From contig OX345647.1 in NCBI GenBank assembly GCA_947044365.1, positions 3,784,501 to 3,848,500 on the forward strand: a stretch of 64,000 nt of DNA, written 5' to 3'. Below the pieces are notes generated by a model that was not told where the DNA came from, ran no database searches, and saw nothing but the letters and a program-made list of their open reading frames with translations. Of this stretch, positions 8,886 through 63,167 are shown piece by piece; within the stretch, counting starts at the first letter, position 1; each line of letters begins with the position of its first letter. The translations under genes were made by a program, and so were the position numbers. This DNA comes from Petrosia ficiformis (Eukaryota > Porifera > Demospongiae > Haplosclerida > Petrosiidae).

Positions 8886-9256
8886 TTATATAAAAGATAA
8901 CTGTACTGAGATCTCCTGTGCTGCTTTTAACCAATCTCTTTCAAACTTTTTTGCAATGAATTCAAAACTACCTTTCATTCGAATTAAAACTTGGAGAAAT
9001 GTCTTACAATAATCTTCTAATTCAGACTGAGTGTCTCTTAATCTAATCCCAGCCATAAACGAATTCAGAATGCTATCAGGCTTTGGATTCCTCTGCACAT
9101 CTACTGATATAATTCCTTCTTGAAACATTTCATTCTTGATACTCTCCAAAGAGTTCTCTATGAGAGTACACAGATTAGCATAGTATTTGGTTACAACATC
9201 CTCAATCAATTTTTGCAGTTTGGTAATATCAAACTGAGGTTTACTTGTAGTAATAC
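8886..9256 (-). other. Terminal CARD-like exon of gene A
   Basis: Last exon of gene A (acceptor tttgcag at 9257 onward, phase 1). It encodes a compact helical segment from PQFDITKLQKLIEDVV to the stop. The gene B counterpart (47673-48046) is strongly diverged in sequence but keeps the helix spacing, the Asn-Pro before a Lys/Asp-Ile-Leu helix, and a W-L-x-A-A near the end. Six-helix death-fold domains (CARD or death) have this size and pattern. Which subfamily it is cannot be settled by eye. Confidence 0.5.
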
Positions 9257-12200
9257 CTGCAAAAAAACAAAAAAAAAACAACATTTCTCATCCACCTGTT
9301 ACACCGGATTGAGATGAAATGGTCTCTCAATTCAATTCTATAATGTTTTAACTTTAGAAAATGTATAAGACATAACAAATCTCAAAGAACACATACACAA
9401 ATGTCAATCACCTTCATGAGACAATGAAGTTAGATCTCTTTCTGATGATTCTACATGAAGACAGAGAGGAGATAGTGAATACATACATAAAAGTGTATGT
9501 ATATGTCATGTCTCAAGTGCTATATCTGATTTATAATTATTGAGCCCGATAGCCTGAGGGCAAGATGATTATAACCCTGATGTCAATAGCATGAGTGAAG
9601 CATAAAACATTAAATATGTCATGCCTTCTCTTTGGGATATGGCCCTCAGGCTCATCAACTGCAAACCTGATATGGCACTCAAGGCATAACATATCATATA
9701 CAAAATATAATAATAGCTGGTTAATCATAGCAATAAAAGTGTTATTACTCAGATACTTTTAATTAAATATGAGATCACTAAAACTAACATTAGTTTTGCC
9801 TCAAGTAAAATGTGTACTTGAAGACATGCCAATTTAGTTAGTATTTAGATTATTCAACTAATTGATTTTAATGTTCTCATATATGATCTATTTTTAATAT
9901 CAAATTATAATTTTGACTTAAAAGAGTACCTTCAAATGTCCGAACAATGAAAAGTTTTGATTCCTTTGTATCAACTCCATTGAGTTTGACAGGAATTTTG
10001 AGAATAGTTTCAGTAGTAATATTCGGATCATCCATTGCTTGTATAGTTACTAGAAATTCAGGAGGCTTTGGTATTTCTTTTCCAAACATATCCACCATTT
10101 CTTGATCAATCTTTAAAATTGAATTTGATAATATAGCAGATACATAGAGATTATCTTCTTACACTGAAAGGGTTGGCATGTGCCACTACTTTCCATCCAC
10201 ATGAAGCAGTATCTTCGTCTATAGTCATTTTCATATAAGACTGAGTGAATGTAAACTTGATATACTGATCATCCTCTGCATTTGGCATTGTCTTTTTTGC
10301 ATACTATATAATAATAAAAAAGAATAAAGAAACGCCTTTTAGACAGTCCACTGTTTATATACTAAACTAAACTTCCTGGCAATTTCAGCATACCAGTGTA
10401 CAATGTAGTAACTATAGTTAGGTGTAGTGTAAGATACAATAACTAAGAGAATTATATTCTTATATAGTCTCATGGTTTCAGGATAGTCATTGATGAAATT
10501 AAGATACAGGAGTAGTGAATATATGATCAAATAACTTGCCTCTAGAAGTGCATCTAATTTTTTAGTTGTTATAACTTTTGTCAACCACTCATTCATTGGT
10601 TTCTTTCTAATATAGAAGGTTTGTATATAATAGCTCTTCTTAATAGCACCAACTAGTTTAGGGGATGAATATGTGGTATTATGAAATGATAGTATTTCAA
10701 TTTTGATTGTACAGAACTATAGAGATTACCTACTGCCTCTAATTGGACCGTTGTATCCTCTACATGCTCCTCAGCAAGTTGTTCATCATTGTTCTGATCA
10801 TGATCAGTGTTTACCAATTCAAGTGGTGGCTGCTTTCCAGTTACATGTTCTTCATTCCCATAATCCACTTCCATCATTCCCAAACCTAACTCATGTTCCT
10901 GTTCTTCAGTTTCTTCATTCTCATCATCTTTTTTCACTTCCACTGCAAGCGCATTGTCATGTTTCTCCTCTTCATGCACCATTTCATTCACTAGACCATC
11001 TTCTGATTGTTCAACTGTGGTTTCATTCTGCTGTTGGTCACCGTGACTTTCCTGTTCGTTATTTGCTGAAAAATTACTATCATATAATACTTCATTCTAA
11101 ATTTAAAGAAAATTTACCTTGGTCATCTTCCTCAGATGACTGTGATGGATCACTATCAGTCTCCTCTTCATCACCAGAAGTACTTGCATAATCACGTTTA
11201 GTAAGAATTGCTACATTGCAAAACTGAGATCGTGAAATTACACCATACTCATTGTTAGGTGTGAATTCTCCTCCATCAATGAAGTTAAAACAGTATTTAT
11301 ATTGTTGTTCATAAGAACTTGGGTATGCAATGGCAAAGGAAAGAAACTGTATTTGCCCTTCCTCTTCAATATCTACACAGTGTTGAAGCTCAATGGTTAG
11401 ATCTTTTAGAACAGCTTTAGAGACTGTGATAGCATATACAGCACTGACTAATTCAGTTCCCTCAGGTAAAATGAAGTTCCCTCCAGCAAGAGCACTCACT
11501 CTCACTTCACATGTTTCAAGAAGAGAAAGAGTGCCTTGAGAAACACGAAGACAGAAACCACATTCCTTCCATTGAAAGAACTGATGTTTCTCTCCTTCTA
11601 TGAGAAACAGCTTCTGTCCAGCAATTAAAGCTCCATGTAGTAAATCTGAACAAATGAATTAATAATAGGATCAAAAATACATCAGTCATGTTAAACAAAT
11701 CACCTGTCATTGGAGTTAATTCATTGAATTGTACACCAATATCACAAAAAGATATATGAAATATGCCTTCTTTCTCACTAAGACGTTTCTCCAGTGTGTC
11801 TATTTCTGCTGCCATCATTTGCACCATTTTTTTGTAAGGGTCTACCAATATAAAATTACAATAAATATAATTGTACAGTAATATATGAATTTGGTAGTAT
11901 ATAATACTACCAAACGATTTGATTGACTGACTTTCAGTTCCACTTTGAACAATAGAAGAAATAACAGTCTCGTTTTCTTGCACAAGTTGTTCACCTTCAC
12001 TGCTGCTTTCGATTACAGAAGAAATACTGGCGTGCTTGTGTTTTGATTTTTGCTCAGAGAAATCATTTTCATCCTCTATAGTATTGGTAGTAATTTTGTG
12101 ACCAGTCTCAACTACTACAATACACAATACAAAGAATGAATGAAATGTGTATATGTCATTAATCACATTTGCAGAAGTCTACGGATAGTTTAACAAGCTA

Positions 12201-15200
12201 AATACTTCACACAAACAGATAATCAAACTTGTATAATAATGATCATAATTATAGCACAAACAAACCTTCAGATGAAATGTGTTGGGAGTCTTTCTCTACG
12301 ATTGGAACTGGGTTGTAAATCTTGTCCTTCAATTCATCTTTTATATATGTGGTACAGGAGGATTTTCTTTCTTTTTCTGTCTTTTCATGATCAGTGTCCA
12401 CTTTTTCTTTGAGACTTGTTACTTTGGAATCTAAAAAGTAGTCAGTAAACATTCAAGTGGAAAATGAGTTTAATAATAATAATTACAAGTATAATTATAT
12501 ATGATTTGCTAATTAAGTTCAGTTGATATAGAAGTGTTTGTTGATTACTATCTGGATAATTGGCATGTTTTTTAGAAGATGAAGGTCATAGAACTTTAGA
12601 AACAGATAGATCGTGATCAATTGATGGACATTTGTAGCATCTTACTACATTGTTTCTATGTCCAGTTTGATCGAGTAGTTCATCAACAATGTGTTTAAAT
12701 AGTTTGGTTGCACATGTCACTGTACCACTGTGATTAGTCACTAAAGCCAGTTTGAGTACAGAAGTATTTCACAATTGATTACAATTAATTCATCTGCAAT
12801 ATTCTTTGCTTTGCACCATTAATTCCATATCATATGCCCATTTAGTTGTTTGCAAGGTTTTCTTTGGTATTCAGTTATAAATTGCTTGTAGTATATCAAC
12901 TTTTGTTACTTCAGTAACGAATCTCTCCTTTGCACTTTTTGCAGCCATGCTGTGGCTTATGTGGTTGCTTTGCTTTGTTGCATCATTCCGGGAGCTAAGT
13001 CAATTAATGGGTGTTGCATGTGATAGAATGCACGCTCAATTTCTAAAGACCATTAGTAAGAAAGTTGCTTGTAGCTTACACTGGAAATAATAGCTGTTCT
13101 ATCTGAAATATATTCATAGCGTTCTACAAATTCTTTTAAAAGTGAGAAGAGTAGATAATCATATAATAGGCTGTTGTGTTCAGGTATGAGAAAGTCAGAT
13201 TACTGAATTTTGGACACCACAAAGCAATCATATGGGATACATATACCTTGTTTTAGAATAATAAATTACTATTTCTGTTTGATATCTTGTTAGTAATCTT
13301 TTTTTCACAAACATGCATATATAATAATTATGTGTACCACAGTGTTTTTGATAAGCTCATATGGCGCACCATTGGCCCATAGAGCTTTTTATTTGGCACT
13401 GCACAGTTCTCTCTTTGGGCCAGTGGCGCAGTTAATTATGATTATATTGTCAGTAACAGCATTAACCCTTTGTTAATTGGCTTAAGATGTATTCTCAATG
13501 GTGCACACACTAACCACTTTTGAGCCAATTTGGTCCAAGCTTCAAAAGTTATCAAAAACTCTGGTGTACCATCACCACTTCGTTCTTTAAAAACAAACAG
13601 GAGACTTCAAAGATTTATCAGTACTATCAAAAGATCTGGAAGTCACGTTTTTTTTTGTTATGATACTGGTGTACAATAATATCACAAAAACATGTAACTT
13701 CCAGTGAAACAAGATAAAGGGTATTAACCTATTTATTTCTTCATGTGACAACAACACAAAAAAATTTATGTCCTCGTATTTTCTCTTGTTTTCAAGCAAT
13801 GAGTATGTAATAAATAGTGTTGGTTAGAACCCTTTCAAGAGGGCTCTAACTATTACATAAACATACATTGAACCCATGTAAAAGTGGGATGGTCCTGTGG
13901 GCACATGCATAAAAATAATTCTGCAAGGGATCACCTTCAGTGCTACTTTCAATTAAAGAAGAACTATTAGTCTGCATGTCTTTTGATTGTTGCACAGAGA
14001 AATCATCACCTACAGTACTAGTCTCCTCCATTTCCCCTTTTATGTCTGTGTTATAAGATACTTCATTTTCCATCTCCACTTTGTTTTCAAATCTCGTTGC
14101 TATGGAACAAAAAGTAACCAGTAAATAAATAATATTTTATGCATGTGTAAACCACTTTAACATGAATATTCAAATAAAAATAATGTTAACATTAGGATAT
14201 TTTTATAACAGAGGTTACTGCTTTTCATTACTTGAAATATGAATATGTTTTAGGAACATACCTTTTATCTTGTTTTGCTGTTTTAGCATGTCTATTTCAC
14301 ATGCCATTTTAATTCTTACTTCTTTTTGAGTGAGTTTTACTATACATGAACAATTATGAATATGAACGAGTTGTGTTTTATATTAATATCATAATTATGT
14401 ATGTGGAGTGATAATTTGTGAAGCCAGAACAAAGATGATAATGTATTCACCTTCCAGATCACTGTATTTGTTTTCATTGGCAAGCAAAAATGATTTCTCT
14501 TCATCCAGCAATAGTTTAGTTTGCATATCTGGTTCTGATATGGAATCAATCATAATTCAATCGTCTTACACTAGTAACGAAATATTTTTACCTTGACCAA
14601 TTTTAATAGATTCTGAATCATACTCTTTTGTTGATAACTGAAATCTAGGAACTCGCACTTCAAACGTAGACTCAGATACTCCTATAGTACATAGTTATCT
14701 GTATTTACATGTGTTTGTATATATGCTAACATGTCTCTACATACACTGTAGATAATCATTTACTTACGATTATAACAGGCTATGATAGTATTAATAATAC
14801 AGTTACATTAGTAGTGAATTGAACTCTATAAACTATACCATACTGTTAAAGTACTTAAGGTGTTTTGTAAGAATGCTAGAAGACTTTAATTATGTAAGTA
14901 TATAGTTAATGTTCCTCACCTTCATGTTTTTCAAGCAGAATATGAGACTTGTCTGATGGAACTTGTACATCTTCTATGCTTTGGATAAACACCGAAAAAC
15001 CTGGAATATTAGTGAGCTTTGTCAATAAGCTTTTAGCACTGCATTTCTGCAGATATGAAATATTATCTACCATGACATCAGAAAGATTAACTCGTGAAGC
15101 AATACCAACTTCATCTTCAACTTTCTCTGTATACTCTGGATTATATGTGGAGAACAATTCAGTTTTAGAAATGTTGATAATATTTTGGTATACATCATTA

Positions 15201-18200
15201 GTGTCTGGAGAAGTTATAACTCCAAGTCGTATTAAAACAGTCTTATATTCATCATCATCTAAATCTTGTATATTAGATGGAAGTTTCACAACTGGTTTAA
15301 TTGTCCATACTAGAGATGCGTAATCAAATACTACTGCTTCGTTTAGTTTAGTAAGGCCAATATCAAGATGTGGAAATCTATGTGGAGGTTGACAGGGAGC
15401 CTTAATCCAACTGAAAGCATGTAAACTGGCAACCTGTACAAAACAAATATCTCCTATTTCAGATAAATAGTATGCATTATCTGATGAGTTATACCACTCT
15501 TTCCCCTTTTCTGAGAATAGGTACTGGATTAAAACATCAGAAGCTTTACCAAGATCTTTATGATTACCTTTAGAAACTTGTTTACAAAACTTGCTATATT
15601 CATTAAATGTAACTACTGCTCGAAGTCCAAGATAACGAAAAAAATCCATCCATTCTTCCTTTCTATACTCTTCACTTAAGAAAAGAAACTCATCAGGAAA
15701 TGTAGTAAAGATGGGAATAGTGTGATCAATAAACTCTTTAACGGGTAAAAGCTGAAGTGGGTTTTTTAGAGACTGTAAACATGCCAATTCTTTAAGGCTT
15801 TCTATAAACATATACGCAATTACTCCTCTTTGATTACGAAGCTGGACATCATGTTTAACTTCCTGATACAGATGATCTCTTATGTAGAGTAAGTGTTGCT
15901 TTCTTTCATCATGTGTGAGGGTATTGAATTGTGGAAAAATGAGTTGCCTGTAGATATCCTTTTGATCCAATTGTGACCCCAATAATGAAAAATCATGGCC
16001 ACATAATTTTCTCCATGAACCATTGTATTCTAAGAATACAACTGTGTCACTAGGAGCCCATTTGTCATAGCCTGCATTGCAGAAACCCAATGGCCACAAG
16101 TAAACTTTCTTCTCTCCTAGATTTGTCAATTCTCCCTGGATTGACTCGAATAAAGGTAATGCTTTGATCTTGTCCTCTATTTGATGATTGTGTCTGTAGC
16201 TCGTTCTACTCAGATAGTCTAGTAGAGTATCAACATAATTGTTACTTGTGCTTAGATTATTAAGTATTTTCTGTTGATAATGCATGTGAAACAGCACAAG
16301 CAAAATACAATCATAGTCTGTCATTTTTGGACAGTATTTTGTGATGGTTTGGTTAGTTGTTGTTGATACATTATCAAGTACTGGTATACCAAGATGATTT
16401 AGAACATCAAATGCATTCAGCAGCTCAGAATCCAGAATATGGTATATGTCCTCTACTGTTGGATCATCAGGTTTCACAACGGGAAGAATTTTAGAACTTG
16501 TGCTGTACAAGTGTTTGTTGGTGGCTGGAAGAAATGCCCAGGAACTCACAATGGATTTTTGATGATTTGTAAATAACGTGTCTTCTTCTGACGAGATGCA
16601 TTCCCAAATATGTTTCAGGGTTTCCATATTTAACAACTCATCAGAGTTATCAACAACTGTATGCTTTAACTCTGATGGAAAGTTATCAGTAATCAGACTA
16701 TTGATGATATGGAAGCTCACATCTTGTGACTCAAGGAAGTAGGAGGAACATAATCTTGTGGATAGCAAAGAAGGATGTAAGAATGCAGACAGACTTTTGC
16801 TAAAAAGATGTGTGAAAGAGCTGCACATTATTTTGTTGTGTTCATCAAAATGTCTCAAGTGGTTATCAGCTGTGAGTAACAGTGGATATCCAAATGGAGG
16901 ATTAGGGAATTGTTTTTGATAAGATATTACTGCTGTAGTATTAAACGTATACCTAAGGAAGTCAGCAAACTTCTCTTTAGTTTTAAAAGGTGTCTTTACA
17001 ATATGACATGGGCACCCATGCAGTAATATGTGAGGATGATAATGACAGTAAAAGTCATAAACTGAAGCTGGGCTTACAATGGCTGGTTGATACTCTTGTA
17101 AGTGTTTGTAAAGCCTATGTGGAGCACATGTTAATACCATTTGTATTCTACGTAAGATTGAAATTATATTTTTTTCTCTTGGCTGAAAATAAGCCTGACA
17201 AAACGGTGTATGTTCGTCATGTAGAACATTCCACTGTACTTTAACTCCATCTTTCTTTCCCTTTCTCACAAAGATCTCTGAGGCCAGAACACAAGGATTG
17301 GCCAACCACAGTTTCTTAAACACAGATTGTGCCAAGAGCACACAGTTTGGCTTTAATGGATTGGCTTTATGAGTTAATTGCACATCATCTTTTGACTCTT
17401 TCCAGTAAGGAAATAGCTCATAATATTGATTAATATCATGGTAAAAGTGGTTTCTATCTTCATATGGTTTATCACTGATGTAATGATCGCAAGCTTCGGT
17501 AAGAAAATGAATGTAAGATGAAGAAATAGCTTCCATAAGTTTATCATTCCATTCCTTCTTTTCATCTTGTCCTTCAGTATCTCCTGACCAAAGTGAATGA
17601 CGATTACTACTCAATACAAACTGACCATTAATATGAACTGGAAGACCAGATAGTCCTGGTAATGGTAGAAAACAAAAGATCTTTCCTAATGGAATGTCAC
17701 TTATATTTAATGAAGCTGCTATACCATGTTTTGGGAGGACTTGACTAATATATCTCCATTTCTGAGAAGGATTTTGAATGTCTCCTACTCCTTGTTGAAT
17801 AAGCCACTTCTCTTTGTGTGTAATGTACTCTTGATGAAGACCATGCATCTTTGTTAGTGGACTAACATACATGTTTAGTAAAGAGTTGTCCTCTTTAGAT
17901 TCAATACTCAATGGATATGTGACTACATAAGGTTTTTTGGTCCTTACGAATTCTCGTAAATTCTTGAACAATTTATCGTGATTCTGCTTTGCTTCAGCAC
18001 TAAGATGAGCTTCATAGCTTACTTTCAGATGAAATTCATTGGACTGGTCATCAATCACATAGTAATGGAACACTGTTACATGATTGAGAAAGAGAAGGGC
18101 TTCCTTGATCATTGGTACCCACACGTTTAGCATATGCTCCAAGTTTTCAGCTGTTAGAGGTTTTGTCATTATTTTGTTTTCAATAATCTCTGACTTTAGT

Positions 18201-21200
18201 ATCTGCTGTTTGGTATATCTCAGTGGAAAACGAAACAGAGAACCAGTCTGGAGACCTGGTGGTTGGTTAGGAAGTGATTTATCTTGTAAATATGCATTAC
18301 GTAAATCAGACATAGCAACCCAGAAATCGTCTTCTATATTATCATAACGTCTTCCAGGATTACTAATATTAGCTCCTGGTATGTAGTAACAGTGTGGATC
18401 AAACACACACAAGGTATTCCCTCCTGTAATGAAACTAGGACAGTCAGTGATATGATAGACAACATTGAACCCGATACCAAACTGTCCTATTGACTCTAGA
18501 TCATCTCGTTTTGATCCAAGACCCAGTTTCTGAATTCCTTCTATATCTTTCTCTGTGAAGTTTGCATCATTCCAAACCAATAAAGCTGGTCCTTGAAGCT
18601 CCTCCCACTCTTCAGAAGGTATTTGTTGTTTCCCATGTGTCCTCTTATCAAGAATAACACACATCTTAGTGGCTTTAGCATCATCAGCATTCAGTAATAA
18701 CTCTTTGATTAGTGTAACATCAAGAGGGTAATCTTGAAGAATATTCTTGATCCTCTGTGTCAATTCTTCTCGTTGACCAAATAGTATGCCACCAAACTCT
18801 TGATTTCCTGTGGCATATTTCTTCAAGAATTCACTTCGTATTTGCTTCACTCCCAAACACAGAGCTAGTTCTCTGTTAAGAGTTGAATGAACTAGTACAC
18901 ACTCCTTACCAACTGGTAACCATGGTGAATCATTGTGTGACAGCTCATTAGCTGGATACAGAGTATAACTGTTATCTGGTAAAACAACATCTAATTCATT
19001 CAGATCCTTCATATTTTCAGGAGTATTGTAGTTCAATTCATGCACTATTGCATCTACTATTTTATGACAGCTATCAGGAAGGGTTTCCTTTCCATATTGT
19101 TGATGCATTTCATCCAAAACACCAATTAACTTTTTAACACTAAACCTGCTATCAATGCATAAAACCTTAGTTAGAGACTTTCTCTCTGATAGCATAGAAG
19201 GTAGTTCAAACAAGTATGGTCCATTTTCTTTCCAATCTCTAGCTACATTTTCTGGACTAGTAAAGCAGTTTCCAGTCCAAATGAATGGTTTATTTCGAAA
19301 AGTAATTAATGTTTTTTCAGCTTCAGTAGGCTCTTGTTGTTTCTCTACTTCTTTTGAAGTTGCAAGATAAGAGCATGTTGGCCTTTCCAATTCCAATTTC
19401 CTGTCCAAAGCTTCGTATGATATACGACATATGTATTTGACTATACTATACTTGTCAGAAACTTCAACCGTACTAGATTTAAATGTATCAATAAGGCATT
19501 TGAAATGCAGTAGGATGTCATTAAGACTTGGTGTGGTTTGAAATCCAAGGTGAGCATGCAGCGACCTTGATATATAACCACAACCTCCTTTATCAGGTAG
19601 TTCTGTATTTACCAGAACTTTCTGACTCCCCAACATAAAACAGTTGTTTTTCAAATTCATCTGGTCTGAATAGAACATTTGTGACGGGCATGAAAATTGC
19701 AAGTCTTCACCTTTCCAAGATAGAAAGTAATCATCTGGTTTAGGAACAACAGGAATGAAAGGAATTTGCTTGAGTTCTTGTTGTTGTGGAATATTTAGAA
19801 GCGGACTTTCTGTTTGGTGAATGGTAGAGTACAATGTATAAGATGGTTTTTGTCTTAGTGTACACTTGATAGATTCCTGTTCTCTCTTAATATTTTCTTC
19901 AATGCATGAGATGATTAGTTTCACTCTTTTCAGAGCTTTCGTATTGTTTTTGCCATAGACTGACTGGATGCTCTTTGCACATTCTACAACTACATCCCAG
20001 GGAAGATTTGAGGTGAGTAAACCAATATCCAACATGGTTTGATGTACTGACTTTTGTTCACAAAATTCACTAATGGGAAACATTTCACTGTCTGGATCGA
20101 AGAGTTCATGAATGTCAGCTGAAGGGTCCACCAACTGAGAAGCTAGTTTCAGTTTCTGACCATTTGGAGTACAAGGAATGCAAGGATTATTCTGAAGAAT
20201 GTTCATTAACTCAGGCTCATTGGAAGTAGTAAGCTCATTAGCAACAGTTAAGAACATACTAAAGAGAACATCATTACGAATTTTACATTCTTTGTCAAAG
20301 TAAGTAATATTTTGGAAGAACTCTTGTGAGAACTCAAGTTGGTCTATCATGCGAAGACCTCCTATCAATACCTGTTGAAGTTGTGTGAGATAAGAAGTTG
20401 GCAAATATACTACAGGTATTTGAAGGATATCTACAGCTTTAGGGACACATTGTGGAATACTACTTGACCCTATTTGTAGTAGTATATTTGGAGACAAGAA
20501 CCTACTTTGGCCTAATGTTAACCACTGATTGGTAGCACCAGAATGAAAGAGATCTTCATTGGATATGAGCTGATAAAATTGACTTATCAGACTTTCCCAT
20601 GGCTGCTTGATAGATAATTGCTCGGTAAGAGGTAGTAAAGCAAAGAAATCATACTCAACAAGCTTGTTTGAGTTGTGTAAATCTTTCAGTAGTTTTAGTA
20701 GTTTGCAGTAGGCTTTTGGAATGACTACCTCCATTAACTTGAGATTCCACCATTCTCGTGAGTCTGATGGACTACTGGATGAAGTACTGGTCCATATACC
20801 ACTCCTATTACTCATAACAGCAAAGTTAGCACTTACATGTACTGGAAGACCCGTACTAGGAACTGATAATGGAAGAAAACAGAACACTGAACCTCCATTT
20901 AGTGGTTGACATCTGAATTGACCTGACTCTTCAGTAAGTTGACATGCTACAGTAGCTATACTCTGCTGATTCTGATGCTGATATATGTCATGTAACTGTT
21001 CTGTGTGAGATGAGACAAGCCAAGTTTCTTTTGTTATGCTACCTGAAAGAAATGAATGTGTTTCCACTTTCCTTGTACTATCGCTGTTGTCGCTTCTCTC
21101 TATGATGAGTTGTAAGGATGCAGCACTATCGTTACTCCTTATCGACTGGAATGTTATTTTCATTACATGGTTTAAAAATAGCAATAGTCTTGACCCATTT

Positions 21201-24200
21201 TTAGTCAAATCTTCTTGTAGTTCATTTATTATTGACTCTCCATATATAGTTGAACTGATTTGACTAGCATTTCTTCTGAATGGGAATCGAAACATTGTTC
21301 CACTGTATGGTATAGATGTATCAAAACCGAACAAGCCTTGATATGGTACTAACTGTTGTGACTTTGAAACAAATGTGGACATGTACTTCATTCGTTTACC
21401 TGGTTGGTTTTCATTCTTTACTACTCCTCTCAAATGTTTGAGTGTTGGATCAAAGATGTAAAGCCATTCACCACTCACAAAGGAAGGAACATCTGTGATG
21501 TGGTATACTGAACAAAACCCAACTCCAAACCTACCGATTTTTAATGGTTTGTCTTTCTTTGTTGCTCCAGCAAGTTTTGTTATGTTAGCAAAGTCTTCTT
21601 CAGAGAATGTACTGTTATTGTGAACTACTAGAGCTGGACCATGACTATCTGCCATTCCATTGAACAATAATCTATCAGTTGTATGAGAACGAGCATCGTA
21701 AAGAATGTTTACCTCTGTAGCCTCTGCATCATCAGCATTCTGGATCATCTCTTTGATAATTGTCAGTCCATCTTTGTATTCCTTGAGGATATTGCTGAGT
21801 CTAGTAGTCAGTGGTTCCTGTTGACCAGCATCTTCAAACACCTCTTCTGTGATGTCTAACTGATCACTCAAAGGTGTTAATCCAAGTTGTGAAGCTAGGT
21901 GAGCAACACTTGAATGGACCAATTTGTACTCCTTATCTGATGACTTGGCAATCTGAAGTAACATATCATTATCTGTATAGGCAACTTCATCTCTAGGTAG
22001 AAGTTGAGGGTAAGTTTCGTCACTTTCTATAGGTACCAAGATTTCATGCTTATCAATTAGATCAGGATTCTGAAATACCCATTCTAAGATATTCTTGATT
22101 GTAGATCTGGCATCATGATCACTGACATGATACTGTTCTTTTCGTATTGTTTGAAGTACAGATAAGATTTGTACTGGGGTAATGTGTTTCACTACACCAA
22201 ATTTATTGAGAAGCAATTCAAACTCGCGCATTCTTGATGGCAGAACAAAGATAAATGGCTCAATGTTCATTCTGAAAGAGGGATTTGCTTGGAGCGCACA
22301 TATTTGTGGACTATAAAATGTTGAATGGCTTTCGACCCAAACCCAATTTTTAATGGAATGTAAATTAATTACATGCATATCACATGAGCCAAGATATCGA
22401 TATGTTTGAAAAGCTATTTGTTCCAGAATATGAGACTCAATTTCAGTTTTGTTATCAATCACATTTTCAAAATGTTTAACTACAGCATTTGCTAACTCAT
22501 GTTTTGAAGTAGATAAGCCCTGACACATTTGAGAAGGGAAGTTCTCCACAAATATAGCTTGAGATCCAACTATCCTGTACAACCCTTTTGAATCAAGTGT
22601 TCCTGAATGAACTACTACATTTTCTGTATTGGAGGAGGCAAAACATCTTGGATACAGCATGGAGGCTTTCCATGTCAAACATTGTGGATAATCTGAAGGT
22701 GGATCACTAGCTACTGGAAGGAAGTTGTAACTTCTTGCTCGTTCTATCATGGCATCTTTTAAAGCATTGCCCCAGTAACCCACTTGTACCTTAACACTTT
22801 GGTTTATAAGATTTGGATACGTGTTAAGAACTTTAAGCAAAGCCACCATTCTGGAATAGCTTACTAGACTACATTTAACAGGGACTGTACTAGAATTAGG
22901 ATAGGGCTGTATAGTACAAATTATATCATATATATCTGTAGCTGTCACTGAGGTTCTCAGGCCACATTGACGAAGGTGAACGATGTACAATTGATATTCA
23001 TCTTTTGGAAATACAGGCTCATCTAGGTAGAGCTGTGAGAGGAGTTGATCTTGAGGATCAAATAAGGTTGAAGGGGATTTCCTCTCTCCTGAGTCAACAG
23101 TGACAAACGGGAGTGTTGAAATAGCCTTGATGAAGGAAGTTCGAGATTGAGGGAACTTCTGTAAGAAAAGATACAGGCTATCCAGTACACTTTTCATGAA
23201 ATCTGTCAAGTTCCCATCAGGAAACTGGTTGCAATTAATTTTTGGAAATACCACATTCTCTAGAAATTCTATTCCATTCATAATGTTCACATGGCCAACT
23301 AAATTCTGCAGAATTTTACTATTGTTGCTCTTATTAATAACCAAAGGCTGGCTAGGAAGCAAATCTGTTCTAAATTCAAAATAGTCCCCTTGAACAACTG
23401 CCTTGTTACTCATACCCTGTGATTTTAACGTATTGATGGAATAACGCATGCCATGATACTGTAAAACAGAGAAAATAGACATTGCACAGATCCTGTTGAT
23501 CCTACCTGCATTGGCGAAACTGGTATGTGTAGCTGCTAGGAAATTCTGGAGTGCACATGCTTCATTATCTGTCAGTTTTGTATTACTAAGGCTATACGGA
23601 GGAATAGTATCTATTACCTCACCTGCTTCAAACTGGTAAATGTATGTAGTAATTAGTTGATGACTTAAATATGAGAAATCATTTACACTAGCTAGTTTGA
23701 TGCCAAACTTCTCAAGAGTTGTTCTTAAAATTGACGTGATAGAATAATGGGCATATTGTGTCACATATATTAATCCTGCTTGCTTGTTTAGTGTGTGAAT
23801 ACTAATTGAACCATTTGAATGTTTAACAGGTACTATATATTTACTTTCAAATATACCCAAATCATAATTCTGAACCCATTTCCAAAATTTCTCAAACTGT
23901 TGTTGTGACCATGACTGTGAGTTTGATTGAGGAAGAAGCTGAGCTACTTCATCAACACCTAAGATTGTAAGCTGTGTTACACTACTGTTAGCTACATTTG
24001 TTAACTGTGTATGGACAAATGGATAGCTTGACAATAAATCAACCATCATGTGTTGGACACCTGGTAGGAGGTCATATCGAATGGAAGTATTACAAACGTA
24101 TATATGGGAAGATGCAAAGTACCTGCTCATTTTCTGAAAGGTAGCAAAACTATAATTTACAAGAGGTATCAGCTCAAGGCCAATCATGTCAGAATAATTA

Positions 24201-26284
24201 TTATCTGACAAGCAATACTGAAGAATATCCAGCTTCTCTTCATATGACATAGATGTGTAAGCATAGGGATTCAGTCTGAGATAATTCCTCAAATGGGAAG
24301 GTCCAATAATTGAAACACTTCTCTTGTAGTAATGCTCTATTGTGTTCCACTGATCTGTTGAAAGCTCAACTACTTTTGCTCTACAAACTAAAAGAACCTT
24401 TTTCACAGCTGGAGAGAGTGATCCAGCTTTGGGAACAAACATTGCCTCTGCTAATGAAATCCATTGACCGTTATTTGCTTCTGTATAAACTATGTTATTA
24501 TAAAGCAGTATCGTTTCAAATAGGGTCTTCAAAATGCCTTCCCATGGTGTATTTTGTACTAATTGCAACGAAGGCCAGCAATTGTATACTATCCTATGTG
24601 GAAGAGAAGGCACTCTTACCAGCGCTTCAATTAGCTGAGCATAGCAATGTGGCACACAGTATTGAACAAGCAGCTTATTCCATGTGCCTTCTTGATCATC
24701 TTGTCTTTCTTGGGCTTCCCATTTAAGAGATCGTCTGTTGTTACTAACAGCAAATGTTCCATTGACATGAATGCCAAATGGTGTCTTGTCCTCTGTTGGA
24801 AGAGGAAGAAAGCAAAAGATTCGACCTTTGGAATGAGCATCAGTATCACTGACCTCAAATGCCGTACCTACCCAGGGAAGGACATGTTGTTTTTCAGCTA
24901 ATGCTAATACCTTGGGATTATCACTACCTATTCTATGCACTACTACCCATTCATATTCACTTTTTATGCTCCCATCGATCATTTCAATATGAAAATGAGC
25001 TGTCTCTTGAATGACTTGCCTGACAGCATATGGAGATTCCCCTGTGAAGGTGGATTCTACACGTCTAACTAACAATTGTTGTTCACTCTGACGCTTTGTA
25101 GAATCACGCGAACTAATACATACTTTGAAAACTTGCTCGAAGTTTCCCAACTGTGAAATCTCAACTACTTCTATTGAACAAACAGATCGCAGAAATAAGA
25201 GTAGGTATTTTGCTTCTGCTTTCAAAGCCTCTAGTAGCTTTCTTAGTTTTTCAATCGTGTAAACTTCATTGGAAAGTTTGGAGGCTCTATTGCGAAGAGG
25301 AAATCGAAACAATGTCTTTCCATCGAATGATGGAGAATGCATGGAGAAATCACCTACTCCATTAAAGGGGCGTACTAAATCTGGACAGGTATACCGCACA
25401 TCTTTCAAGTAATACCCTTTACCAGACTCACCCTTCCAAATGTGTTCTTGTGGTTCTAGAAATCCACAGTAGTCTTCACTAATAATAACAGGAAGATCTA
25501 GAAATGTGAAATGTATGATAATGATATTGGGTATTCATTAGAATATGATTATATATAGCATTCTATTCTATGAAGATATAATATTCAGTATAACTTATGA
25601 ATATTATTATTATCATAGTTAGTGTGAATGAATACTGATTCTTCTTATCATAATGCATGAATATCATTATCAAGGAATGTTACCCCATGATTCACCTGTA
25701 ATGTGATAGACAGAATTGAACCCGATTCCAAATTTCCCCACTTTGTGAGGATTCTTTGCTTTACCACTTTGCTGCAAGCTTTGTATACTATCCCAGTCTT
25801 CTTTCTTGAAAGGGGCGTTATTAAATGACATCAAAGCTGGACCTTGGAATCGGTCCAGTTCTTTGAATGTGGCACTTTCCACCAAATTGTGTGGGAGTGT
25901 TTGCATGTGACGACAATCTAGGTAAAACTTGACTTCCGTGGCCCTGGCATCATCAGCATTCTGAATGATTTCCTGTGTAATGAACATGACATAATGAAAG
26001 TGCACTTTTCTCAATAGTGGTACATGATACACAAATTTGAAAATAAAACTGTCTGATAGATGTATGGTCTATATAGTAGCAATGAATAGTATATTAGAAT
26101 CAAGGATCAATATTCAAAATATCTATGTGGATGACACTAGGTCTGGTTCACCTAACTAGTCTAGCATAATAATGCCACAACTATTTTTGTTCACATTTTA
26201 ATTATAATAAAGTTGAGAAAGTAACATAACATTTGTAGTAACTGCTTGACCCTACAACTACAATAATGACTTACATATCTTATT

Positions 26285-26341
<57 letters not shown>

Positions 26342-27587
26342 GAGTAGCGTGGGCAATTGTGGGCCACCTAAGAGGAGGAGTTTAGTTTCTGCAAACACGA
26401 GAAGTTGAGCTATTGCAGATAGCACCTATATATGTCTACTCTAACTAAAGTAGTATGCAAATTGACAGACCTTGTTATAATTACCAATAGAAATGTTACA
26501 CCTGGTAATGGAGGCAATAATGGGCCACATGAAGCTAATGTGAGCCAGTCTACAAAACCTCTTTAAAAGGAGAGTGTGTTGACAGTTAAGTTGTTATACT
26601 AAATTTACTAGCTCAGGAATGATAATAAGTACGTTTAGAATGATTTAATTAATACAGTTTGTAGTAAAATGCATTAACGTAATATTTTGCACTATTAATT
26701 ATAATAGTTGTATTATTATTCTTACCAAATTACATAATAATTATATTTCTATATAATTGTAATGATAATATTAATAATTATTATTAACATCATAATTATT
26801 ATTATTATGATAATAATTATTGTATATATATTTGGATTGTAATTGCATTATGTATAACAGATTATGCATGCAATGTACAATAAAAAGATTTTAATTGATT
26901 ATAAAAGTGGTTGGTACATATAAAAATAGTAAGTAGTAGTATATTATCTGATATGATGTATCTTCACATAAATAATGTTCCGTTTTCAGTTTCAGAAAAT
27001 ATGAAAATTCTTTATCAGACTAAATTACCGAAAGATCTTATTACAGGGAATTTTGTTTCTCTCAAACTCTTCAGTACCTTTGTTTATAACCTTCTCCTTC
27101 CATTCAGTTACCAGAAATATTCTTATAAATAAGTAATTATATTGTTAACATGATGTGTCCATAATTGTAATTCTATTGTATGTTTTTCCATATACTGTAT
27201 ATATACCGAGATAGTTTCAATTGGCTAGTGTATATGATATACACTAGTCAATTGAAACTATCTCATGAATGGAATATTATTAAATTTGCTGCATTTTAGT
27301 ATATTGGATGCATAGTTTCTGACAAATGGTGAAACTGTAGGAGTCCCCCAAAGTAGATGGTCTGTTAGCTACCAGTTGTAACGAAGCAAATCATGGTAAG
27401 CTCATCCAAATCAGTGTACCTCAGTAGTAAAAGATTGGAAGTGTACCAAAGTTGTAAATCATGTAGGTAAGATACAAACCTACATTCGAGCAAAATTTGA
27501 GTTTTCTTGGTAACTTCTCTGAAAAATAATGTTATGTCCTATTAGGAGTGGCCCATAATAGCCTCTGGCCCACAATGCCCCACCCTA

Positions 27588-27622
<35 letters not shown>

Positions 27623-27791
27623 AGAAGCATTGATATCATTGTTAGAATATATGTGTGTGTGTAACCTAACTCACTTTGAATATCTGTCCACTGGGATATT
27701 CTTGCAGTATATTGGAGATCATCTGATACAATGGGGGTCTTCTCTGACCGAATGTTTCTCCAACAGGGTGAACTGGAGACAATCCAGCCAT
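8886..27791 (-). CDS. Gene A: sacsin-type GHKL ATPase – ZU5 – CARD-like protein, about 4,527 aa
   Basis: Giant intracellular protein, apparently intact. Eighteen exons: 27675-27791, 25696-25972, 14920-25497, 14592-14681, 14451-14534, 14262-14339, 13935-14099, 12266-12430, 11932-12114, 11704-11841, 11118-11645, 10730-11065, 10540-10652, 10163-10303, 9930-10110, 9412-9450 and 8886-9256 cover 17; I did not find an eighteenth. The coding sum is 13,584 nt, exactly 4,528 codons, and nearly all introns are phase 1. Residues 1-3657 form three sacsin repeats, each with a GHKL ATPase fold: N-boxes at about 40-49 (IIQNADDAR), N1385 (MIQNADDAE) and N2401 (LLLNADDAK), with G-boxes such as KFGIGFNSVYHIT. 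Residues 3658-3958 are charged, coiled-coil-prone linkers. ZU5 lies at about 3980-4105 (ILPEGTELVSAVYAITVSK). An acidic exon spans 4135-4246. The final 123 residues are a helical CARD/death-fold candidate. The sacsin UBL, DnaJ and HEPN parts are absent. Signalling function is inferred. Confidence 0.85.
9513..9690. repeat. Two hairpin repeats with a gagccc/gagggc core, in an intron of gene A
   Basis: One imperfect hairpin (9513-9597) has arms around gtgctatatctgatttataa and a gagcccga...ctgagggcaag core. A second, degraded half follows (9632-9690: ggccctcaggctcat, ggcactc). The design matches the perfect hairpin at 63932-63995, so these appear to be members of one palindromic repeat family. 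Confidence 0.6.
10304..10539 (-). other. GC–AG intron in gene A
   Basis: The exon ending at 10540 stops at CTAGAG and the intron starts GCAAGT, not GT. The frame is phase 0 on both sides (acceptor tatatag, then TAT GCA). Gene B has the same GCAAGT at 49911-49916. This is a textbook non-canonical GC–AG donor context (AG|GCAAGT). Confidence 0.7.
11118..11645 (-). other. ZU5 domain exon of gene A
   Basis: A single 176-codon exon carries the whole ZU5 fold: FQWKECGFCLRVSQGTLSL, a Cys-Glu-Val strand, ILPEGTELVSAVYAITVSK, TIELQHCVDI and a late FCNVAIL strand. The exon ends in an acidic Asp/Glu/Ser tail. ZU5 domains sit before UPA and death domains in UNC5, ankyrins and PIDD. The exons just downstream (9930-10303) could hold a UPA-like beta domain, but I cannot recognise it securely. 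Confidence 0.75.
12981..13240. repeat. Dispersed repeat, copy 2, in an intron of gene A
   Basis: Colinear with 6490-6771. It lies in the 1.5-kb intron between exons 13935-14099 and 12266-12430, which is the second-longest intron of gene A and is otherwise filled by short repeats. Confidence 0.7.
13333..13570. mobile_element. Small TIR element (MITE-like) in an intron of gene A
   Basis: About 238 bp bounded by inverted repeats of about 20 bp (accacagtgtttttgataa on the left, ttatcaaaaactctggtgt on the right), next to gta/tac at both edges. No coding capacity. Confidence 0.5.
13609..13704. pseudogene. Inverted/palindromic relic of a linker exon
   Basis: Plus-strand bases 13609-13655 match, on the opposite strand, the start of the gene B linker exon at 51084-51176. 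The adjacent 13665-13704 match the same exon in normal orientation. Together they make a palindrome (13636-13704, arms ctggaagt / acttccag). Gene A does not use this exon; its equivalent is 11704-11841, with a different first half. Confidence 0.6.
13935..14099 (-). other. Fused linker exon of gene A
   Basis: One 55-codon exon that in gene B is two exons (51577-51720 and 51323-51418) separated by an intron. The first half matches the B exon up to GAAATGGAGGA and the second half matches the next B exon from GAGACTAGTACT. The join is in frame, so the intron and some flanking coding sequence were removed by an in-frame deletion. A second linker pair (12266-12430 and 11932-12114) keeps the two-exon form. 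Confidence 0.7.
26290..26335. repeat. (AT)n microsatellite in intron 1 of gene A
   Basis: About 22 AT dinucleotides, immediately beside the TIR element that starts at 26347. Confidence 0.95.
26347..27585. mobile_element. 1.24-kb TIR transposon, non-autonomous, in intron 1 of gene A
   Basis: The ends are inverted: left GCGTGGGCAATTGTGGGCCA, right (reverse complement) GGGTGGGGCATTGTGGGCC, each flanked by TA (26345-26346 and 27586-27587). A second gggccac motif lies at 26523. No transposase frame is present; a 73-residue frame at 26911-27132 has no motif. The matching intron of gene C (43508-44564) lacks this element and carries a different one, so insertion followed the duplication, or it was lost from C. 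Confidence 0.7.
27208..27264. repeat. Near-perfect 57-bp palindrome
   Basis: Arms of 27 nt (gagatagtttcaattg onward) with one mismatch and a 3-nt loop. It is nested in the TIR element in intron 1 of gene A and would form a long hairpin in RNA or single-stranded DNA. It may be a separate tiny palindromic element. Confidence 0.85.
27586..27624. repeat. (CT)n–(AT)n compound microsatellite
   Basis: About ten CT units followed by about eight AT units, directly at the right edge of the TIR element. Confidence 0.9.
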
Positions 27792-28515: not shown

Positions 28516-28694
28516 TCACTGCTATTAATCACTATACTACACCACCGGTTACATTTCAGGTACCTTTGAAACGTAACTGTCATCTCCAAAACAATTTGTT
28601 TGGAGGGAAAATAGGAAGTTCTAATTTAATTCTTTGGAGGATTGTCATGTAAGTCATATCACAATTGTATGTTATATAGTACTACATGTCTTAC

Positions 28695-29050
28695 CAAACA
28701 TAAGTCCAGCCTCTTTGCCAATGTTTCAAAGGTTACACGTTCTCCATTTTCAGGCAAATTTGGAACATAAGTGGATGTAGACACTGTAGATTCTTGGCTG
28801 TCCTTCTGATCAATATGTGGAAATTTTTTGTGTAAAGAAAGTAGTTTTTTAGCTAGTGATTTTTTAGAGGATTCATCTTCTTTGTCTTCTCTCTTTTTGA
28901 TCCATTCCATTATCATTTGGAAAACACACCACCATTTCATTTCCTCATCAGGTGGTTTCAAATTCAGTTCATTACCAAAGGCACTGATGACCTCTATAGG
29001 GTAAGACCCAATTACTTTTGCTGGCATCATTATATTATCTTGAGAGAGAT
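28695..29050 (-). other. Death-like domain exon at the end of gene C
   Basis: Phase-1 exon beginning LSQDNIMMPAKVIGSYPIEV, with WWCVFQMIMEWIKKRED and a final LAKRLDL helix; the donor GTAAGA follows at 28694. It is clearly related to the exon 1391-1690 of the P-loop gene (LSQDDVMMVAKEISSY, then WWIISNLIMDWIAKRE, then LARSLDI), with the same phase and start. So the same death-like module ends two otherwise different genes. The terminal stop-bearing exon after the donor was not identified. Confidence 0.65.
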
Positions 29051-29348
29051 CTGTAGAAAATTAATAAAATTTCAGAAATCAATAATATTTTGATTTTAAT
29101 GTTTACAAGGGCTGTCCAATTACTTAAGTGATTTATAGCACTTTAAATGCAAGAATCTTTGATTATATTTCTGCCTATATGCAAACAATTAATAATTAAA
29201 GCTCCACCCGAATAAATGAATCAAGAATAAACTCAAAGATAAATCCTTAAATTATCTGTCATTAGAGTTAATTCAGAAAACTGTTCACAAAAAGATGTAA
29301 CATTCAGATCTGATTGAACTGATGAACATATTTGGAAATAATGTATAC

Positions 29349-29351
<3 letters not shown>

Positions 29352-29414
<63 letters not shown>
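29352..29414. repeat. (AT)n microsatellite
   Basis: About 31 AT units, located just downstream of linker exon 29428-29517 of gene C. Confidence 0.95.
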
Positions 29415-29417
<3 letters not shown>

Positions 29418-30291
29418 ATTAACTCACTTTCAGTGCTACTTTGAATTATAGAGATATTAGTCTCTGATTCTGGCAAAGAGAAATCATTCTCATGTTCTAT
29501 ATTAGTAGTCTTAGCTCCTATAATACAAATACAACATAATTTGTGTATATATCATAATCACACAAAACATTTTGTATAGATGTCTATTAGCATACAAACA
29601 GTACATAAAAGATCTACTTTACAAAAAAACAGATAATCAAACTTGTATTACAATATAATACACACCTTCAAATGAAATGTGCTGGAATTCATTTGTTACA
29701 ATTGGATCATCCTTCGTTTTTACCGTCATGTCTGTGCTATAGGATGCTCCTTGATAGCTAACATTCTTGTGTTCGAAACTTGTTGCTTTGGAATTAAAAA
29801 AAGGTGAATACACATTTTAAACATGAATGAATATTCAATTAGAGAAAATAAAGCATTTGTTACAAACATTTTTGTAACAGAAATATTTCACCACATAATG
29901 AAACAAAATTATTAAATTAATATAATAAACTACTATCTTGTTTCGCTGTTTCAGAATGTCCATTTCCAATGCCATTTATAATTATAATCTAAATGCATCT
30001 CATGAAATTCTGACAAAATTCTGATAAATGTGATTGTAGGAAAGGCATCACCAGCCAGCGCTTTAAATCACATAATGCACATGCCCTTTTATGCATACAT
30101 ACAACATTAACATAAACATAATAATACTTATAATTAAGTATTAGTTAACGAGGTTGGGGTTATAAAGGTTCAGGTTACATAATGTACAAGTGCATTATGT
30201 AATCGAGATCCACCTCAAAACGGTAGTATAAGTGTTTTATTGCAAATTGACTTAATGCACAAACTCTTGAAGATAAAAGATGTTAAATATA

Positions 30292-30745
30292 TTAAGGTTG
30301 TCCAATGGGTAAAAATCTTAAACAGTGGGTACCCTAGCAAATTTAACATGTGTGAAAATGATTATTACTGCAATCTTAAGATGTGGTCAAGGGGTGTCTA
30401 ACCATGGTTAATACCATGCGTGTTTCAAACACTCACCTTGCTACCTTCTTGTGACTAAGAAAGAGCAATTTGGTATCTACTGCTTTCTTGGAAAATATTC
30501 CATTCCAGTCAGGAAATTAGAATCCTGATTTATTTAAATTGAACTTTTAAAGCTGAAATGCAAGTATTCAGATTGAAACTTCAAAGTTAATTGATAAATT
30601 GTACTTAGTTATTCATTTCCCTACATGCAATCTACTCTCATATTTTGTATTGTAGCTTAGAAGATCTATAATCATGAATAACACTAAAATTCCTGTGGGT
30701 TAAGAAATTAAACTGGGTATATCTGGTACCCATGGACAACCCTAG
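30292..30745. mobile_element. TIR element beside the last sacsin exon of gene C
   Basis: The ends are inverted: left aaggttgtccaatgggta, right (reverse complement) agggttgtccatgggtacc. It spans about 450 bp with no coding capacity. It lies in the intron directly after the donor at 30761. Confidence 0.6.
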
Positions 30746-30761
30746 AATATATATTATTCAC

Positions 30762-32380
30762 CTTCCTGATGACTGTCTTCACATTCAATAACAGAAATTG
30801 GTTTCTCTTTATTCAGCATTACTTTAGTTAGCTCTTGTCCTTTGACTTCATTTTCTGGGACAATAGTGATGAACCTGTACAGATCTAAAACTGACACTGT
30901 TTCCCCTTTGGGTTCTTGCTCATTCAGGAGAATCTTGTATCTTGTCATAGTAGGCTCTGAAGAAGTTGATTCTTCACCAGTGAGTTCATTTTCCCATACT
31001 GAATATTGATATAAGACAATGGCCCAGACAAATATTTGTGCTGATGTTTTGTAAACCACCCATTCCTTGGGACGGAAAATATGATTCTTATCTCTGTCCC
31101 GTATATGGTATAATTCCTTGGGACCTAATTTGGGAGTGTACAAACCCTCCTCCTCCTCCTCCTCCTCCTCTTCTTCTAACTGTAACTGAACTTCAAAATT
31201 ATAGTGATCATACAGTGACTGAATTTCTTCAACACATTTGATTTTTAAGCATTCACTAATACCTGGTATTAACTTCAAAAATGTTGTGAGATTGAGCTGC
31301 AAACTTCTTGCTACTTCTATACACAGAGACTGTGTTAACTCTTTTATTAACGGAGAGGTTACTTGAGTCTTCTTGGTTGCATATAGTGTGTAATCATTGT
31401 TTACATTTTGAAAAACAAAATCAGGAGAAATTGTTCCTATGTTAACTGTCAAATACACATTAGCCTGTATGTAAACTTGTAACACCAATAATGTTCACAT
31501 TATTCAATAGCTCTAGCAAAGTGGAAACGAATGTTGAAGCATGTTTGCTAGATAAATCATACCGTTGTACAATGAGTGGCAGAAGTTGTTCCAGATGTGG
31601 AAGAAGTCTTTTCAATTGGTTCATATGTAGATACAGTGGACACTCGTTTACATCTACAATGGGATTCAATACACTCTCGTAACAGATAAGAGACATTCCT
31701 TTAGGTCTTATTTCTCCTGGAACTCTGAGACAGATGTCTTTTTCTATCATACTTCTTTCAGAAGTAGAATAAAACCTGGTTGTGCTCTCAAGTTGCCTTG
31801 TTCGAAATGGCTGTTGAGGCCATGTGTCAGGTGGTATCCGAAAAAGAGAATATGGTGCATCTATGAAATTGAATTCTCTTAACTCTTTTGGCCTGTATCT
31901 GGTACTATCAGCAAATACAAGGTTAGTAGAATTAATCAATTGCCAAGTTTTCCAGTTGGTGATGCAAGGAAGCTGAGCTCCTGGACTAAATCTTCACTTC
32001 TTTTGTCATATCCTGTGAGTGTTGTCGCTATCTGTCTAAGTTTCAGTATGGCATGTCGTACAGTTTGTAATTCATTAAGACCAAGAGGTGTGTCATTAAA
32101 CTTTCTTTTTATCTTTGCTAACACATGCTGAATATGTTTCACACCAATAGTATCACAGACACCCATGATTTCAAGAGAGAAATCAATTTGACTCAAATAG
32201 TATGGTTTTCGATTGATATAAGGAATTAATGTTTCGTCTTCAAGTGAAAGAAGTTTCACTACCTCTATTGGCTTCACCAAGACAGGTTTCCTGGGCTCAA
32301 TGACATCAGCAGAAACTGGAATACAAGGAATATCATGAAGTTTCTTTATCAAATTCTCAACTTTGTGTTTCTGCAAATAT
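30762..32380 (-). pseudogene. Sacsin-like C-terminal tail, present only in gene C
   Basis: After the third repeat this copy continues from IPCIPVSADVIEPRKPVLVK through QLINSTNLVFADS, a poly-Glu tract and KEWVVYKTSAQIFVWAIVLY, then YKILL and VSVLDLYRF. Vertebrate sacsin has a similar segment ending in a DLYKF-type motif before its DnaJ domain. Two frame shifts interrupt it (near 31970 and 31485). In genes A and B the chain leaves this path at IPG(F/V)SVFIQSIED, so they share a deletion of about 500-540 codons. Confidence 0.65.
31145..31176 (-). repeat. (GAG)n / poly-Glu coding microsatellite
   Basis: Trinucleotide run encoding about ten consecutive Glu residues within the sacsin-like tail of gene C. 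Confidence 0.95.
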
Positions 32381-35300: not shown

Positions 35301-36730
35301 CAATTCATCATGACTCTGCATTGCTTGATCACTAAGATGAGCTTCATAATTTGCTTTCAACTGAAATTCATTAGATCGATCATCAATTACATAGTAATGA
35401 AACTCTGTTATGTGGTTAAGAAATAGAAGGGCTTCTTTAATCATTGGAACCCACTCATTTAGCATACGCTCCAACCTTTCAGCTGTTAGTGGTTCTGTCT
35501 TCACTATATCATCAATTATGTTTGACTTTAGTATCTGCTCTTTGGTATATCTCAGTGGAAAGCGAAACAGAGAACCAGTCTGGAGACCTGATGGTTGGTT
35601 AGGAAGTGGTTCATCTTGTAAATATGCATTACGTAAATCAGACATAGCAACCCAGAAATCGTTTTCTAGGTTATTATAACATCTTCCAGGATTACTAATA
35701 TTAGCTCCTGGTATGTAGTAACAGTGTGGATCAAACACACACAAGGTATTCCCTCCTGTAATGAAACTAGGACAGTCAGTGATATGATAGACAATATTGA
35801 ACCCAATACTAAACTGTCCTATTGACTCTGGATCATCTCGTTTTGATCCAAGACCCAGTTTCTGGATTCCTTCTATATCTTTCTCTGTGAAGTTTGCATC
35901 ATTCCAAACTAATAGAGCTGGTCCTTGAAGCTCCTCCCATTCTTCCGAAGGTATTTGCTGTGTATCATGCCTCCTCTTATCAAGAATAACACACATCTTA
36001 GTGGCTTTAGCATCATCAGCATTCTGTAATAACTCTTTGATTAGTGTAACATCAAGAGGGTAATCTCGAAGAATATTCTTGATCCGCTGTGTCAATTCTT
36101 CTCGTTGTCCGAATGCTATGCCACCAAACTCTTGACTTCCTGTGACATATTTGTTCAAGAATTGACTTCGTATTTGCTTCACTCCCAAATAAAGAGCTAT
36201 TTCTCTGTTAAGAGTTGAATGAACTAGTACACACTCCTTACCAACTGCTAACCATGGTGAATCATTGTGTGACAGTTCAGTAGCTGGATACAGAGTATAA
36301 CTGTTATCTGGTAAAACAACATCTAATTCATTCAGATCTTTCATATTTTCAGCTATATTATGGTTCAATTCATCCACAACTGCATCTACTATTTTATGAC
36401 AGCTATCAGGAAGAGTCTCCTTTCCATATTGTTGATACATTTCGTCCAAAACACCAATTAACTTCTTGACACCAAATCTGCGTTCAATGCATAAAACATT
36501 AATTAGCGACTTTCTCTCTGATAACATAGAAGGTAGTTCAAACAAGTATGGTCCATTTTCTCTCCAATCTCTAGCTACGTTTTCTGGACTAGTAAAGCAG
36601 TTTCCTGTCCAAATGAATGGTTTATTTCGAAAAGTAATTAATGTTTTCTCAGTTTCAGTAGGTTCTTGTGGTTTCTCTACTTCCTTTGAAGTCGCAAGAT
36701 AAGAATATGTTGGCCTTTCCAATTCCAATT

Positions 36731-37290
36731 TTTTTTCCAAAGCTTCGTATGATATACGACATATGTACTCGACTATATTACACTTGTCAGAGTCTTCAAC
36801 CATACTAGATTCAAATGTATCAATAAGGGATTTGAAATGTACTAGGATATCATTAAGACTCAATGTGGTTTGAAATCCAAGGTGAATATGTAATGACCTT
36901 GATATTTCACCACAACCTCCTTTATCAGATAATTTTGTATTTACTAAAAGTTTCTGACTGCCCAACATGAAACAATTGTTTTTCAATTTCCATTTGCCTG
37001 AGTAGAACATTTTTTTCCAAAGCTTCGTATGATATACGACATATGTACTCCACTATATTACACTTGTCAGAGTCTTCGACCATACTAGATTCAAATGTAT
37101 CAATAAGGGATTTGAAATGTACTAGGATATCATTAAGACTTGATGTGGTTTGAAATCCAAGGTGAATATGTAATGACCTTGATATTTCACCACAACCTCC
37201 TTTATCAGATAATTTTGTATTTACTAAAAGTTTCTGACTGCCCAACATGAAACAATTGTTTTTCAATTTCCATTTGCCTGAGTAGAACAT
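36731..37290. repeat. 280-bp tandem duplication inside gene C
   Basis: Units 36731-37010 and 37011-37290 are nearly identical; I see about four differences. Both run from ttttttccaaagcttcg to agtagaacat. The period of 280 is not a multiple of three, so the duplication breaks the reading frame. Genes A and B have a single copy. Confidence 0.95.
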
Positions 37291-48779: not shown

Positions 48780-48810
<31 letters not shown>

Positions 48811-63145: not shown

Positions 63146-63167
63146 CTAGAAATGTGAAATAATAATG

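Follow-up and report, generated by a model that had tools for sequence, protein, structure and literature searches.

Vertebrate sacsin carries a ubiquitin-like domain at its N-terminus. Sacsin paralogues of certain animals, several of them in the sponge Amphimedon queenslandica, bear an N-terminal DEATH domain and perhaps belong to a suicidal response (available portion of PMC3710099), and TRADD-N occurs fused to sacsin and, separately, to a UPA-ZU5 module (available portion of PMC8195603). On the ZU5 side, CARD8 and NLRP1 cut themselves at an SF/S site late in a ZU5-like domain; Ser, Thr or Cys can initiate such self-cleavage reactions, and mutating the residue that precedes the Phe had small effects only, in Nup98 and CARD8 (D'Osualdo et al., available portion of PMC3210808). 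Among the papers listed in searches of the openly licensed literature, none could be identified as describing sacsin combined with ZU5, and PMC8195603 alone contains both words; the available portions of PMC12909245 and PMC8260672 do not mention sacsin. The locus considered here lies in a 64,000-nucleotide stretch of Petrosia ficiformis DNA (contig OX345647.1, positions 3,784,501 to 3,848,500; hereafter the window), part of a genome of 191 Mb in 29 contigs. Its minus-strand gene at 8886-27791, one of several tandem copies and here called copy A, is read as encoding a single protein of ~4,500 residues in which a HEPN-less sacsin array is followed by a ZU5-CARD-like tail, with a proposed release mechanism, a reading that we hold with moderate confidence.

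The 17 joined exons of copy A amount to 13,491 nucleotides (nt), that is 4,496 codons and a single terminal stop, where an initial annotation of the window had counted 4,528 codons; the junctions 25497/14681 and 11118/11065 that it had named are exactly exon edges of the present model, and the phase-consistent exons that it had described are matched by the introns ahead of exons 3 to 13, which are phase 1 throughout. The introns, 16 in number, have GT-AG borders, apart from the GC-AG intron after exon 13. Exon 1 (27675..27791) contributes 39 residues (MAGL...FGQRRPPLY) from a conserved ATG, a start shared with copy B (44681-44565), copy D and a further sacsin gene, E. Exon 2 (25696..25972) opens the first ATPase repeat, the remainder of which lies in exon 3 (14920..25497; PF25794, 3e-168) together with SACS repeats 2 (about 21119-21820) and 3 (about 18029-18772). 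Exons 4-10 (11704..14681) encode a Ser/acid-rich and coiled-coil-like linker (exons 4-7 at 14681-14592, 14534-14451, 14318-14262 and 14099-13935; exons 8-10 at 12421-12266, 12114-11995 and 11841-11704), and are followed by the ZU5 exon 11 (11118..11645), an acidic linker in exon 12 (10730..11065), a domain at the place of UPA in exons 13-15 (9930..10652; 10652-10540, 10303-10163 and 10110-9930), a short linker in exon 16 (9412..9450), and a CARD-like helical domain with the stop in exon 17 (8886..9256). TA-type simple repeats (~26290-26345, 29351-29420 and 63150-63260) are intronic or fall between the tandem copies.

The large open frame to which exon 3 belongs (25534-14906, 3,542 amino acids (aa)) contains three SACS stretches (Pfam PF25794, 3e-168), all with intact ATP motifs, E-x-x-[QL]-NADDA at model residues 40, 1381 and 2397 and G-x-FG-x-GF at residues 118, 1453 and 2469, which bears out the three GHKL repeats originally proposed. 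Pfam matches to HEPN, to a J domain and to NACHT or LRR were found neither in this big exon nor in the 839-aa tail; the predicted A. queenslandica relative P0086 described below likewise gave no J match, and a diverged J domain could escape the profile. Across the genome, a SACS search returned 71 exon-level matches, 17 of which hit first-repeat exons and correspond to 17 genes, 10 in a cluster on contig C12 (a count tallied from the table and excluding one weak match on C14). HEPN has 15 matches genome-wide, none inside copies A-D, and 13 of 13 other sacsin genes have one on their own strand, 12.9 to 20.8 kb beyond the first-repeat exon. Copies A, C and D are followed instead by ZU5 and last-domain matches, so that in these three copies a ZU5-CARD tail replaces the HEPN of the other sacsin genes; with 150 of 358 ZU5 candidates scored, a more remote ZU5 may still lie near another sacsin gene.

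All the copies in the window are on the minus strand, and the initial annotation had not included two of them, B and C. Copy B (28690..45000) has a big exon broken in several frames and remnants of tail exons, with no ZU5 match; copy C (47673..64000) has an open big exon (52542-63254) and a last exon at ~48050-47673, its exon 2 lying beyond the window, and the frame of its ZU5 exon (50453-51039) is shifted by a 20-bp tandem duplication. Copy D, which adjoins the window (C12:3852989-3875558), retains an open big exon, a ZU5 exon and a last exon, part of the acidic exon being lost.

The ZU5 domain initially assigned to this tail is supported by the relatives and the fold of exon 11, and not by a profile match of the exon itself, which hits no Pfam family. 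Since a PF00791 search of the whole genome matched two places only, both outside the window, the domain was examined through paralogue alignments: 7 of the 18 members aligned to exon 11 match PF00791 (best 6e-5), and fold comparison based on a weak model agrees with ZU5, the closest ZU5 structures being those of ankyrin. The ZU5 profile had no match among PDB sequences. Near the end of the domain, 14 of 18 aligned rows have Phe or Tyr followed by Cys or Ser, the Phe-Cys of copy A being residues 141-142 of translated window:11119-11643. Among copy A's 30 closest loci, a part of the family in which two loci represent one place (copy C), Phe/Tyr-Cys is present in 23 of 30 frames, and Asn-Ala takes its place in the remaining 7. 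These seven (L037-L043, contig C6, at 1.9-2.8 Mb) form a subfamily that looks, by its residues, as though cleavage had been lost. In our own reading the Phe-Cys pair may be equivalent to the cut site of CARD8 and NLRP1, a correspondence suggested by its position before the last strand of the weak model.

Exons 13-15 occupy the position that UPA has in UNC5, PIDD and CARD8. They match no Pfam family, and among PDB sequences their best hit is an ABC transporter at E 1.2; they do align with two A. queenslandica proteins, P0086 (sacsin-like isoform X2, an NCBI prediction of 4,979 aa; 32% identity) and P0121 (Kelch repeats followed by a ZU5 tail; 25% identity). Exon 17 adopts in prediction a helical death fold that is nearest to CARDs in fold comparison, so that the death fold first proposed is supported as a predicted fold; copy A gave no CARD profile match. 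Among its relatives, 2 of 24 members fall below the CARD cut-off (best 0.023), and family members scanned singly (10, then 8) gave scattered weak families, CARD just twice. The last-domain profile found nothing meaningful among PDB sequences, a designed repeat protein scoring best at 0.32; used as the sole query of a protein search, the last domain returned zero matches at E 10. With the whole tail, the single match was P0121, among 7,997 word-sharing candidates scored, a limited scoring probably due to the acidic stretch. The order of ZU5, middle domain and CARD-like domain would, by analogy, correspond to how the signalling ends of CARD8, NLRP1 and PIDD are arranged.

Comparison of the copies reveals that the big exon and the ZU5 exon are constrained and that the tail has had an uneven history. 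For the big exon, A and C are close (synonymous divergence (dS) 0.086; ratio of nonsynonymous to synonymous rates (dN/dS) 0.37, Fisher p 4.4e-22), and both are distant from D (dS 0.64 for A-D and 0.63 for C-D, dN/dS 0.37). The ZU5 exon of A and D, with the frameshifted C left out, is nearly equal (dS 0.11, dN/dS 0.26, p 0.0016) in spite of their old, differing sacsin arrays. Conversely, the last exons of A (8889-9254) and C (47676-48047) share only 39% protein identity despite near-equal big exons (dS 1.15, dN/dS 0.44, p 0.00084), and those of C and D are close (dS 0.075, dN/dS 0.68, p 0.55). Because the A-D arrays have diverged with ZU5 alike, and the A-C arrays are alike with CARD-like exons diverged, exchange between copies is indicated: it seems that the tail has been swapped among copies and that, inside the tail, so has the last exon, the contrast between A and C making exchange of the CARD-like exon likely. 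Values for exons 14-15 (dN/dS 0.31 for A-D, p 0.016; 0.62 for A-C, p 0.26; 1.13 for C-D, p 1) and for the acidic exon (A-C, 0.45, p 0.15) are not all significant among the recent tail comparisons, as would be expected if changes are few or, equally, if the copies are relaxed.

These features bear on what the tail does. It might be a scaffold or cytoskeletal adaptor of the kind represented by the ZU5 of ankyrin, with the protein a specialised chaperone that has no role in death or immunity; the nearest ZU5 structures are indeed ankyrin's, and human sacsin is a chaperone (available portion of PMC3710099). We regard this as rather unlikely, considering that the last domain is CARD-like, that the last exon has diverged and seems to have been exchanged, and that sacsin-Death fusions are reported in a sponge (available portion of the same source).

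A separate question is whether array and tail are joined at all. Exon 3 terminates in a phase-1 donor with an in-frame stop codon 11 nt further on, and a donor-like phase-1 AGGTRA stands just ahead of the big-exon stop in A, B, C and D, at two truncation points (A/C and B/D); within 30 nt of the stop, no such donor occurs in the HEPN-ended sacsin exon of any of 9 genes (out of the 13), and the AGGTRA background in the exon of copy A is 0.02 per 30 nt. Predicted relatives from A. queenslandica have a similar order. P0086 contains Death, three SACS stretches and HEPN, then a sub-threshold ZU5 (17.1 bits against a cut-off of 21); its tail aligns with exons 9-11 of copy A at 5e-30, exons 9-10 matching the segment that precedes ZU5, and with exons 13-15 plus ~40 residues of exon 17 at 5e-19. 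P0115 (sacsin-like, partial, predicted, 3,948 aa) has two SACS stretches and HEPN and continues past a ZU5 that is again sub-threshold (17.8 bits). Among the best 120 of 1,170 proteins from a protein search, the ZU5 profile, which was built with P0086 included and P0115 not, matches 2 of 11 named as A. queenslandica, and all species-named matches in the protein searches are from that sponge. Nearly all the others of these 120 are nameless ENA entries that could hardly reveal a tail, as one of them, P0006, terminates at the big-exon stop like the unspliced frame.

Against a single chain, two neighbouring genes on the same strand may be envisaged: a sacsin cut short at 14906, then an independent ZU5-CARD gene whose initiating ATG would be located near 14551 or within exon 6. 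In-phase ATGs do exist before exon 5 and within exon 6, the stop codon begins 5-11 nt past the donor in 4 of 4 copies, and ZU5-last-domain units are common away from sacsin. Genome searches with the ZU5 exon and the last domain gave at least 150 matches each (150 of 358 and 150 of 249 candidates scored, respectively), revealing a very large family on contigs C1, C2, C3, C6, C11 and others; when the best 50 of these 150 last-domain matches are considered, a listed ZU5 match on the same strand lies no more than 8 kb upstream of 30 of them (median distance 3.1 kb), and none has one downstream on that strand or on the opposite strand. We nonetheless consider two genes unlikely in view of the phase-1 donors, present at two truncation points and in none of nine controls, of exon 4 of copy C, which by eye retains splice sites and frame, and of the parts being joined in two A. 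queenslandica models too. On splice sites, phase and relatives, one chain is therefore the favoured interpretation, in support of that given at the outset. That copy A is a functionless, decaying duplicate is improbable: copy B is broken, copy C has a frameshifted ZU5 exon and copy A itself has lost an acceptor, but its frame is open across 4,496 codons and dN/dS stays under 1 both in the big exon (A-C) and in the ZU5 exon (A-D), although this signal may partly predate copy A.

For a single protein with array and tail, we infer a role as sensor or cell-death adaptor and propose a hypothetical mechanism. The sacsin array would bind misfolded or foreign protein in an ATP-dependent manner, while ZU5 would hold the tail in check and perhaps undergo self-cleavage at the conserved Phe-Cys, in which Cys replaces the Ser of CARD8 and NLRP1. 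Alteration or removal of the N-terminal part would then free the CARD-like domain to assemble and recruit a CARD partner, leading to a death or inflammatory response. If so, an early animal lineage would possess a direct link from protein-folding surveillance to death-fold signalling, and the ZU5-CARD output of NLRP1 and CARD8 could serve a sensor other than LRR or NACHT; autocleavage at Phe-Cys and the target of the array become testable questions. A more specific version, a sacsin-based counterpart of NLRP1/CARD8 in which the ATP-driven HSP90-like array is bait or sensor, ZU5 cuts itself with Cys as the nucleophile, removal of the N-terminal part by protein quality control frees a CARD fragment and CARD exons are exchanged, is speculative and on the whole doubtful; were it true, near-identical arrays with exchanged CARD exons could wire one sensor to different partners.

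Death-like exons also occur nearby. A P-loop protein frame (3790-1805, minus strand, 661 aa, GLPQSGKST) is followed by a Death-like exon at 1706-1374 (together 1374-3790), and sacsin gene E has a similar pair upstream (C12:3904500-3901160, L086). Between copies B and A lies an orphan Death-like exon (28690-29050, minus strand), 89% identical to C12:3901190-3901561, which is probably the left-over 3' exon of a P-loop gene. Its position upstream of exon 1 had made it (29050-28690) a candidate for a P0086-like N-terminal Death domain on copy A; this was rejected because tblastn finds no such exon before B or D, and because at gene E and at 1706-1374 the Death-like exon follows a P-loop frame.

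In summary, copy A shares with sacsin the three ATPase repeats of SACS/HSP90 type, their motifs intact, and differs from it in that no HEPN or J domain was found and a ZU5-CARD-like tail is present. Both P0086 and P0115 have, like copy A, ZU5 after the SACS repeats, and P0086 continues with a middle domain of the exons 13-15 type and a last helical stretch; unlike copy A, these predicted models retain HEPN, P0086 has an N-terminal Death domain, and its last domain is only ~20% identical. Sacsin-Death and TRADD-N-sacsin proteins also fuse sacsin to death-superfamily or adaptor domains, and a part in cell death or antiviral conflict is suspected for them; the available portions of PMC3710099 and PMC8195603 name no ZU5 or CARD on sacsin. 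The sacsin/death-domain theme is thus already known and the architecture of copy A partly anticipated: the initial claim that no protein of this order had been described agrees with the literature searched, and is qualified by the predicted P0086 and P0115 (the latter to just past ZU5) and by published sacsin-Death proteins (available portion of PMC3710099). With CARD8 and NLRP1 (FIIND-CARD) and PIDD and UNC5 (ZU5-UPA-Death), finally, copy A has in common a ZU5, a further domain, which in copy A occupies the position of UPA, and a C-terminal domain of known or predicted death fold, as well as, towards the end of ZU5, a Phe with a nucleophile after it, a putative one (Cys) in copy A and Ser in the others; unlike them, it has a long acidic insert following ZU5, and a sacsin array replaces the LRR, NACHT or receptor.
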